DNA of 48,757 nt from positions 1-48,757 of the forward strand of contig JAAXIC010000053.1 of NCBI GenBank assembly GCA_012270555.1, written 5' to 3'. Below are positions 13,391-26,119 of this stretch, in pieces. The stretch comes from Chloroflexota bacterium. GTDB taxonomy: Bacteria > Chloroflexota > UBA11872 > VXOZ01. Position numbers and translations under genes: made by a program. How positions within the stretch are numbered: the first letter of the stretch is position 1; the number at the start of each line of letters is the position of its first letter. The notes under the pieces were generated by a model. That model did not search any database and was not told where the DNA came from. It worked only from the letters and a program-made list of their open reading frames with translations.

Positions 13391-13750
13391 TGGTGGAGAT
13401 GGGGGAGAGTCGAACTCCCCGTCCAGAGCTGTTCTTCCTGCAACCTCTACGAGCGTAGTCAGCTTTTGGGTTTCATTCCCAGAGCACGAGCAGACGAAAA
13501 CCTCTGGAAACTAGCCTCCGTTTGTCTTTCACAGTCGCCGAAGGCTGGCGGACCGCGGCACCCCGGTTGATAGGTCGCCCAAGCTGCGCTCACCGGAGGA
13601 AGAGCAGGTGGACGTCACAGCTTTATTTAAGCCGCGAGAGCAAATTCGTGCTTGTTGGCACTTAAAAGAGTTGCTACCTGTTTTACGAGGGTGATAGCAC
13701 CTCGGCTCGCAGTTCCAGGCCTCCCAACCCTGTCGAATCCACTCATCCCC
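13391..13750 (-). ncRNA. ssrA: Transfer-messenger RNA (tmRNA)
   Basis: One-piece tmRNA of about 360 nt. Its 5' end GGGGATG pairs with 3' CATCTCC, followed by encoded ACCA, to give a seven-pair acceptor stem with one G-U pair. The 5' end continues into GAGTGGATTCGAC, the conserved tRNA-like block, and the 3' part has the T-arm loop GTTCGACTC. The internal tag frame uses a GCC resume codon at 13657-13659 and encodes ANKHEFALAA, stopping with TAA at 13627-13629. The ALAA end is the recognition signal for ClpXP, which is also encoded in this window. An extended -10 promoter lies just upstream. Confidence 0.97.
13627..13659 (-). other. tmRNA proteolysis tag reading frame
   Basis: Ten codons plus TAA: A-N-K-H-E-F-A-L-A-A. 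With the alanine carried by charged tmRNA the added tag is AANKHEFALAA. It lies inside ssrA and is not a separate gene. Confidence 0.93.
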
Positions 13751-17358: not shown

Positions 17359-17452
17359 CTACACCGGGGACTGCGGGATTGCCGCGCCCTCATGGCTGAA
17401 CGGCGCGACGAAGGTGTCGGCGACGCACGTGTCGCAATGAACTGCGAATAGG

Positions 17453-17537
17453 TGCCGAAGAAGGGACTCGAACCCTTACGAGCGCAATGCCCACTAGCCC
17501 CTCAAGCTAGCGCGTCTTCCAATTCCGCCACTTCGGC
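17453..17537 (-). tRNA. tRNA-Leu (anticodon GAG)
   Basis: An 85-nt class II tRNA on the minus strand. The acceptor GCCGAAG pairs with CTTCGGC, followed by discriminator A and no full encoded CCA. The D-arm begins TGGCGGAATTGG. The anticodon arm CTAGC-TTGAGGG-GCTAG gives GAG. The variable arm is long and the T-arm AAGGG-TTCGAAC-CCTT is standard. A good promoter precedes it. Confidence 0.97.
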
Positions 17538-24352: not shown

Positions 24353-24386
24353 TAACGTGTTCTCTGGCTTAATGAGGAGCACTGCA

Positions 24387-25430
24387 GTGGCGCTACCAGT
24401 AAAGTTGACCAGCCTGGCTGCCTGCGCGGGGTGAGCAGGCAAACTCGGCCCCGCCGAGCTCGCGCAGGTGCTGCGCGCCTTTCCCTCACAAGCGAATAGC
24501 AACCTGCTCGTGGGGCTGACCGCCCCCGACGATGCCGCCGTGTATCGCATGAGCGACGAGCAGGCCATCATCAGTACGGCGGACTTCTTCCCGCCCGTCG
24601 TCGACGATCCTTACGCCTACGGCCAGATTGCGGCCGCCAATGCCCTGAGCGACGTCTACGCCATGGGGGGAGAGCCGCTCTTTGCTCTGAACCTCGCCGG
24701 CTTTCCCGACGACCTCGACCTGGATATCCTCGGCCGCATCTTTCAGGGCGGCGCGGACAAGGTGATCGAAGCCGGTGCCCTGATTGCCGGCGGTCATACG
24801 GTGACCGATGAGGAACCCAAGTACGGCCTGGCGGTGACCGGCCAAGTACATCCCGAGCGCATCTTCACCAAGGCCGGCGCGCAACCGGGCGATGTGCTGG
24901 TGCTGACGAAACCCATCGGTACCGGCGTGATCACCACGGCCCACAAGCGCGATTGCGTGGATGCGGCACACCTTGAAGAGGCGATTGCGAGCATGTGCCG
25001 TCTGAATGGCGGGGCCGCGCGCCTCTTCCAGCAGTTCACCGTTCACGCCTGCACGGACGTGACCGGCTATGGCCTGCTCGGTCACGCCATGGAGATGGCG
25101 CGCCACGGCAACGTCCGCTTTGAAATCGACGCGCAAGCCGTCCCGCTGCTTTCCGGCGCATTAGGCTATGCCCAAGACGACGTGGTGCCGGGCGGTCTCG
25201 ACCGCAATCGCGCCCACCTAGAAGATGAGGAGCTGCTTTCGCTGAACGCGGACATCCCACCCGCGCTCGCCGCCCTCCTCTTCGATCCCCAGACCAGCGG
25301 CGGCCTCTTGGCAGCCGTACCACCGCAACAGCAACCCCAACTGGAAAAGGAATTCCGCGCCGCCAACGAGCCGCTCTGGATTGTCGGCAAGGTACGCGAG
25401 GGAACCGGCATTACAGTTACTGCGGTGTAG
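24387..25430 (+). CDS. selD: Selenide, water dikinase SelD with in-frame UGA (selenocysteine)
   Basis: SelD makes selenophosphate from selenide and ATP, the selenium donor for selenocysteine. Reading from GTG 24387 (GAGGAG seven nt upstream) gives MALPVKLTSLAACAG, then TGA at 24432-24434, then AGKLGPAELAQVL. E. coli SelD has GAGC17GCK at this point, so residue 16 encoded by UGA replaces the catalytic Cys; the invariant Lys follows three residues later. After it come LTAPDDAAVY, the metal-binding ADFFPPVVDDPY, ANALSDVYAMGG, IAGGHTV, TDVTGYGLLGH and DPQTSGGLL, all SelD hallmarks. Total 347 residues, as in E. coli. Two GC-rich hairpins lie just after the UGA. SelA/SelB/SelC are not in the window. 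A caller that treats UGA as stop would begin wrongly at 24468. Confidence 0.93.
24432..24476 (+). promoter_or_regulatory. UGA selenocysteine codon with candidate bacterial SECIS hairpins
   Basis: Downstream of TGA 24432-24434 lies a perfect hairpin CTCGGC-CCC-GCCGAG (24444-24458), its loop about 17-19 nt after the codon, a distance usual for bacterial SECIS. A second, GCGCAG-GTG-CTGCGC, is at 24462-24476. Which one SelB would bind is undecided. Confidence 0.55.
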
Positions 25431-25504: not shown

Positions 25505-26119
25505 TCACTCGCGCGGAACGGCAGTCTCATACTCAGTCCGCCACACGACCAGATCGGTGTTGACCCTGCCGTCCGGTTCCTGGATGCGGGCGTGGCAGGT
25601 GAACCCGTTTTTTTGGAAGGCGCGCTGGCTGCGGTGGTTGTCCGCCATGACGGGGGCGAATATGGCGTCGGCCCACGCGCGCTGAAAGCCAAAGTCTACG
25701 AGCAAGCGGATGGCCTCCGTGCCGTAGCCGCGTCCCCACAGCTCCTTCTCGCCGATCATCAGGTCGATGCGGCGCAGGTCTTGATCGGGAAACTGCGCAA
25801 CGACCCGCTGCAAATTCATCCGTTGCAGCCAGCACTCGCCGATGGGATTTCCATCTACCTCCATGATGAAACAGTAGGCATGGGTTGAAATCCAGCGGTA
25901 GATAGTCTGTAACTCCTCTAATGTGCTCTCTTCAAAGGGGTTGTGATCGGCGAGTTCCATCACGGCGGGATCGTTATTCCACTTAAGCAGAATGTCCCAA
26001 TCGCCTTCACCCATGGGACGCAGCGTCACTGCCGCTCCCCGCAGGGTGACGGCATGAGTCTGCATCGTGGAGACGCGGCGTTCAGGCGTGGGTTGCAGTT
26101 CCGGGATGACGGTTTCCAT
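25505..26119 (-). CDS. GNAT family N-acetyltransferase (RimJ/RimL type)
   Basis: A 204-residue acetyltransferase. The core begins TLRGAAVTLRPMGEGDWDIL, and the acetyl-CoA loop is ELWGRGYGTEAI (the R/Q-x-x-G-x-G/A motif). The closing strand NHRSQRAFQKNGFTCHARI is the usual RimJ/RimL feature for moving an acetyl group to an amine, often an N-terminal or antibiotic amine. The substrate is unknown. The ATG at 26119 has no Shine-Dalgarno sequence, but the promoter 26126-26153 would place transcription start at the ATG itself. An internal ATG at 26065 is an alternative start just before the domain. Confidence 0.87.
   Translation of the reverse strand: METVIPELQPTPERRVSTMQTHAVTLRGAAVTLRPMGEGDWDILLKWNNDPAVMELADHNPFEESTLEELQTIYRWISTHAYCFIMEVDGNPIGECWLQRMNLQRVVAQFPDQDLRRIDLMIGEKELWGRGYGTEAIRLLVDFGFQRAWADAIFAPVMADNHRSQRAFQKNGFTCHARIQEPDGRVNTDLVVWRTEYETAVPRE

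Follow-up and report, generated by a model that had tools for sequence, protein, structure and literature searches.

Selenocysteine (Sec)-containing selenide, water dikinase (SelD) forms the second most widespread selenoprotein family in prokaryotes. A 2006 survey ranked it among the top two selenoproteins by distribution (PMC1794560), and among 223 reference prokaryotes Sec was found in 19% of SelD genes, always at the same position (PMC4561486). Sec-containing bacterial SelD proteins are catalogued in these two studies and in PMC13188914, the last of which also provides a model of the bacterial SECIS element (bSECIS), with a stem of 4–16 bp, a loop of 3–9 nt, a G in the first two loop positions, a distance of 16–37 nt from the UGA and an energy of −7.5 kcal/mol or below. 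The selD gene investigated here (24387–25430; this and the selD features below are on the plus strand) is located in a contig of 48,757 nt from a Chloroflexota bacterium; the contig is referred to as the window. It shares with the known Sec-containing proteins the N-terminal active-site position of Sec, a lysine three residues further on, a predicted SECIS hairpin directly behind the UGA, and the accompanying selA, selB and selC genes. No essential difference from these proteins was found; the SECIS loop, 33 nt from the UGA, lies near the far end of the 16–37 nt range. The Cys-containing SelD of E. coli (PDB 3u0o) belongs to the same family but carries Cys17 where Sec is encoded here, and the Cys homologs examined lack a hairpin in the 33-nt register. 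The Chloroflexota SelD is thus an ordinary addition to a known selenoprotein family and, as the original prediction held, not a new one. A literature search of limited depth did not turn up any publication dealing with selenocysteine in Chloroflexota from sponges.

The reading frame starts at GTG 24387, contains a single in-frame TGA (24432–24434, codon 16) and continues to a TAG stop codon at 25428–25430, giving upon read-through of the UGA a product of 347 aa with the N-terminal peptide VALPVKLTSLAACAG-U-AGKLGP. This product scored 387.9 bits against TIGR00476 (cut-off 125) and 342.7 bits against NF002098 (cut-off 299), and both the AIRS N and AIRS C domains were detected. When aligned to the SelD of E. 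coli (3u0o; E 7e-71, residues 5–321), the product had U16 opposite Cys17 and K19 opposite Lys20, in agreement with the predicted pairing of the UGA with the catalytic cysteine and of the essential lysine three residues later; the active-site Cys/Sec and Lys columns were invariant in the SelD alignment (A2). The Shine-Dalgarno-like GAGGAG reported upstream was likewise found, at 24374–24379 and 7 nt 5′ of the GTG, and is also present 5′ of selD in two relatives (L023 and L026), with a weaker purine-rich element in two others (L024 and L025). Stop-based ORF calling without read-through starts at GTG 24468 and yields a protein of 320 aa from which the active site is lost, as had been anticipated. 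Elsewhere in the window, a tmRNA with the tag ANKHEFALAA (13391–13750), a tRNA-Leu(gag) (17451–17537) and a GNAT acetyltransferase (25505–26119) that weakly resembles AAC(6′) aminoglycoside acetyltransferases but scores far under their cut-offs are encoded on the minus strand.

The codon at the Sec position was compared in 71 relatives from many phyla, these being the genome contigs in which the position was readable, and was TGA in 54, TGC in 16 and TGT in one, with no other codon observed. SelD matches were found in 82 of the 101 Chloroflexota genomes searched, and 77 of the 83 matches in total contained an in-frame TGA. All five other genomes of the same genus encode a SelD with exactly one TGA, sharing 83–96% identity with the window SelD across the UGA. 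Within the genus, codons 1–15 differ from those of the window by 3–6 synonymous and 2–4 non-synonymous changes per pair, while identity in the 60 bases 5′ of the start codon drops to 25–68%. As these codons are conserved as protein while the bases preceding them diverge, the frame upstream of the UGA is very probably translated.

Several relatives deviated in detail. SelD matches with two in-frame TGA codons were listed for G087 and G050, of which the G050 gene (L121) has one in the translated stretch, and G022 encodes two UGA-type selD genes (contigs C55 and C127), one of them within an open frame of 784 aa that is possibly a fusion. In G011 (96% complete, same class) neither a SelD nor a SelB match was found, as would be expected if the whole trait had been lost.

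The same comparison bears on whether the UGA is a real stop codon, with translation restarting at GTG 24468 to give an N-terminally truncated SelD-like protein, or with the gene decaying. The 320 aa mechanical ORF does begin at this GTG, but codons 1–15 are kept as protein throughout the genus, opposite to the pattern of a stop without upstream SelD conservation that the original prediction had named as counter-evidence. Furthermore, UGA or Cys occupies the position in 71/71 relatives, the remainder of selD is intact at 83–96% conservation, and GTG 24468 coincides with the loop of the predicted SECIS hairpin, making termination and restart highly improbable compared to read-through with insertion of Sec.

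The source genome, a draft of 56 contigs and 3.18 Mb with 97% completeness, was searched for the Sec machinery, whose absence had been proposed as grounds for rejecting the prediction. SelA (571.8 bits), SelB (377.6 bits, with the SelB beta-barrel and the C-terminal winged helices of the wing-2 and wing-3 domains) and a tRNA-Sec with anticodon TCA (UCA; 67.1 bits, above the Rfam cut-off) were all found. SelB was present in 36 of the 41 genomes examined. Of the five other members of the genus in this set, four carry it, and the one without a SelB match is only 69% complete. A second selB-like match at the end of contig C18 comprised an EF-Tu-type GTP-binding domain only and was not accepted as a second selB. 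The genome search revealed no mnmH/ybbB (selenouridine synthase), and the role of selD here therefore appears to be in the Sec pathway.

The same genome encodes a formate dehydrogenase alpha chain (contig C7 of genome G000, 164422–166284; L125, L133) with one UGA in the context IDSCNRT-U-HAPSVVGL, the site at which formate dehydrogenases usually carry Sec. This UGA is followed by a hairpin whose loop, GGUCU, lies 18 nt downstream of it, and the protein is probably a second selenoprotein of the genome. The chain seems to be split: a separate frame further downstream (C7, 169079–169228) accounts for the first 50 profile positions, which correspond to the N-terminal Fe-S part, and an ORF of approximately 650 aa lies between the two frames. 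One CMD/AhpD-like protein was also found in the genome, with no internal UGA.

The identity of the inserted residue cannot be told from an open frame alone, and the UGA could in principle be read by a near-cognate tRNA or be reassigned to Trp or Gly. Against this, the homologs carry Cys, never Trp or Gly, the full Sec machinery is encoded in the genome, selA and selB are open frames with no UGA inside them, and in the families that were searched UGA is confined to the two known Sec positions, in SelD and formate dehydrogenase; we regard such decoding as very improbable. A TGC or TGT codon misread as TGA through sequencing or assembly error, conceivable for a draft genome of 56 contigs, is refuted by the five other genomes of the genus, which were assembled separately and have the same codon, and is the least probable explanation of all.

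The selD UGA would thus most plausibly direct insertion of Sec, and the RNA behind it was examined for a SECIS element. The predicted hairpin (24461–24477) consists of 7 bp, CGCGCAG/CUGCGCG, with the loop GUG at 24468–24470, 33 nt after the UGA, and an energy of −10.4 kcal/mol, in accordance with all published bSECIS criteria. Among 14 Chloroflexota-type sequences, five have C-G and eight have G-C as the outermost of the seven pairs, and the covariation score of the helix exceeded those of every shuffle and of all slid registers. In the 33-nt register, 40 of 65 distinct UGA genes have a stem of ≥5 bp, where synonymous codon shuffles gave an expectation of about 6.6 that ignores kinship, the relatives not being independent, compared to 0/18 Cys genes; a looser criterion based on energy folding found a model-like hairpin in 61/65 UGA genes and 6/18 Cys genes.

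The original prediction had cited hairpins just after the UGA as support. Folding energy alone does not provide it, as the value for 24432–24476 was not significant (z −0.35) and three of four spans gave z between −0.35 and −0.67; it is the comparative tests that make the evidence strong. There are also alternative folds, among them a long helix enclosing the UGA (24420–24470), which gave a z of −2.65 and has its 3′ arm in common with the 24461–24477 hairpin. The hairpin was not matched by any Rfam model. Bacterial SECIS elements vary in sequence, and the lack of any SECIS match in the window at either gathering or permissive Rfam thresholds is for that reason not evidence against one.

The span 24444–24476, which had been put forward as a single fold, was resolved into two hairpins, the second being the predicted SECIS element at 24461–24477. 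The first is a perfect hairpin, CUCGGC-CCC-GCCGAG (24444–24458), located between the UGA and the SECIS hairpin and unchanged in five species of the genus; it was initially considered as the SECIS element and rejected as it has no loop G. Codons 19–27 (24441–24467), within which this hairpin falls, are nucleotide-identical in these five species and constitute the longest identical run in selD, directly behind the UGA (next longest, five codons; permutation P 0.003), which points to selection acting on the RNA just 3′ of the UGA.

Across Sec-type SelD genes (loci L023–L124), SECIS-like hairpins were found in two main registers, with the loop approximately 33 nt or approximately 15–21 nt after the UGA. 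The former was seen in this lineage, other Chloroflexota, Armatimonadota and others, and most UGA genes without the 33-nt hairpin show a similar structure, with a G in its loop, at approximately 15–21 nt. These may represent distinct SECIS registers, and the 24444–24458 hairpin, near the closer one, could conceivably be the relic of a SECIS element that moved within the gene, although we consider this reading rather doubtful. No description of the distribution of hairpin registers in SelD genes was found in a non-exhaustive literature search, and this is the only point that might merit a short note.

Taken together, the conserved frame, the exchange of Sec and Cys, the machinery genes and the conserved hairpin form the basis for assigning selD as a Sec-containing selenophosphate synthetase, and judging from these genomic data it almost certainly carries Sec at position 16 by SelB-dependent insertion; what had been put forward as a likely selenoprotein is supported by the UGA/Cys column, the machinery and the SECIS-model hairpin alike. 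Translation would start at GTG 24387, and when the ribosome arrives at UGA 24432, SelB with Sec-tRNA-Sec would bind the hairpin at 24461–24477, so that Sec is put in at position 16 rather than translation being terminated. By analogy with established SelD biochemistry, Sec16 would have a catalytic role, its selenolate and Lys19 taking part in the synthesis of selenophosphate from selenide and ATP. The selenophosphate would be used by SelA for further Sec-tRNA, and SelD would consequently depend on its own product.

The analysis fixes the true start and the active site of a selD gene for which stop-based calling would lose both, and documents that the selenocysteine system is intact in this genus of Chloroflexota. 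Otherwise, it confirms a well-described pattern, in which SelD is itself a selenoprotein reliant on its own product.
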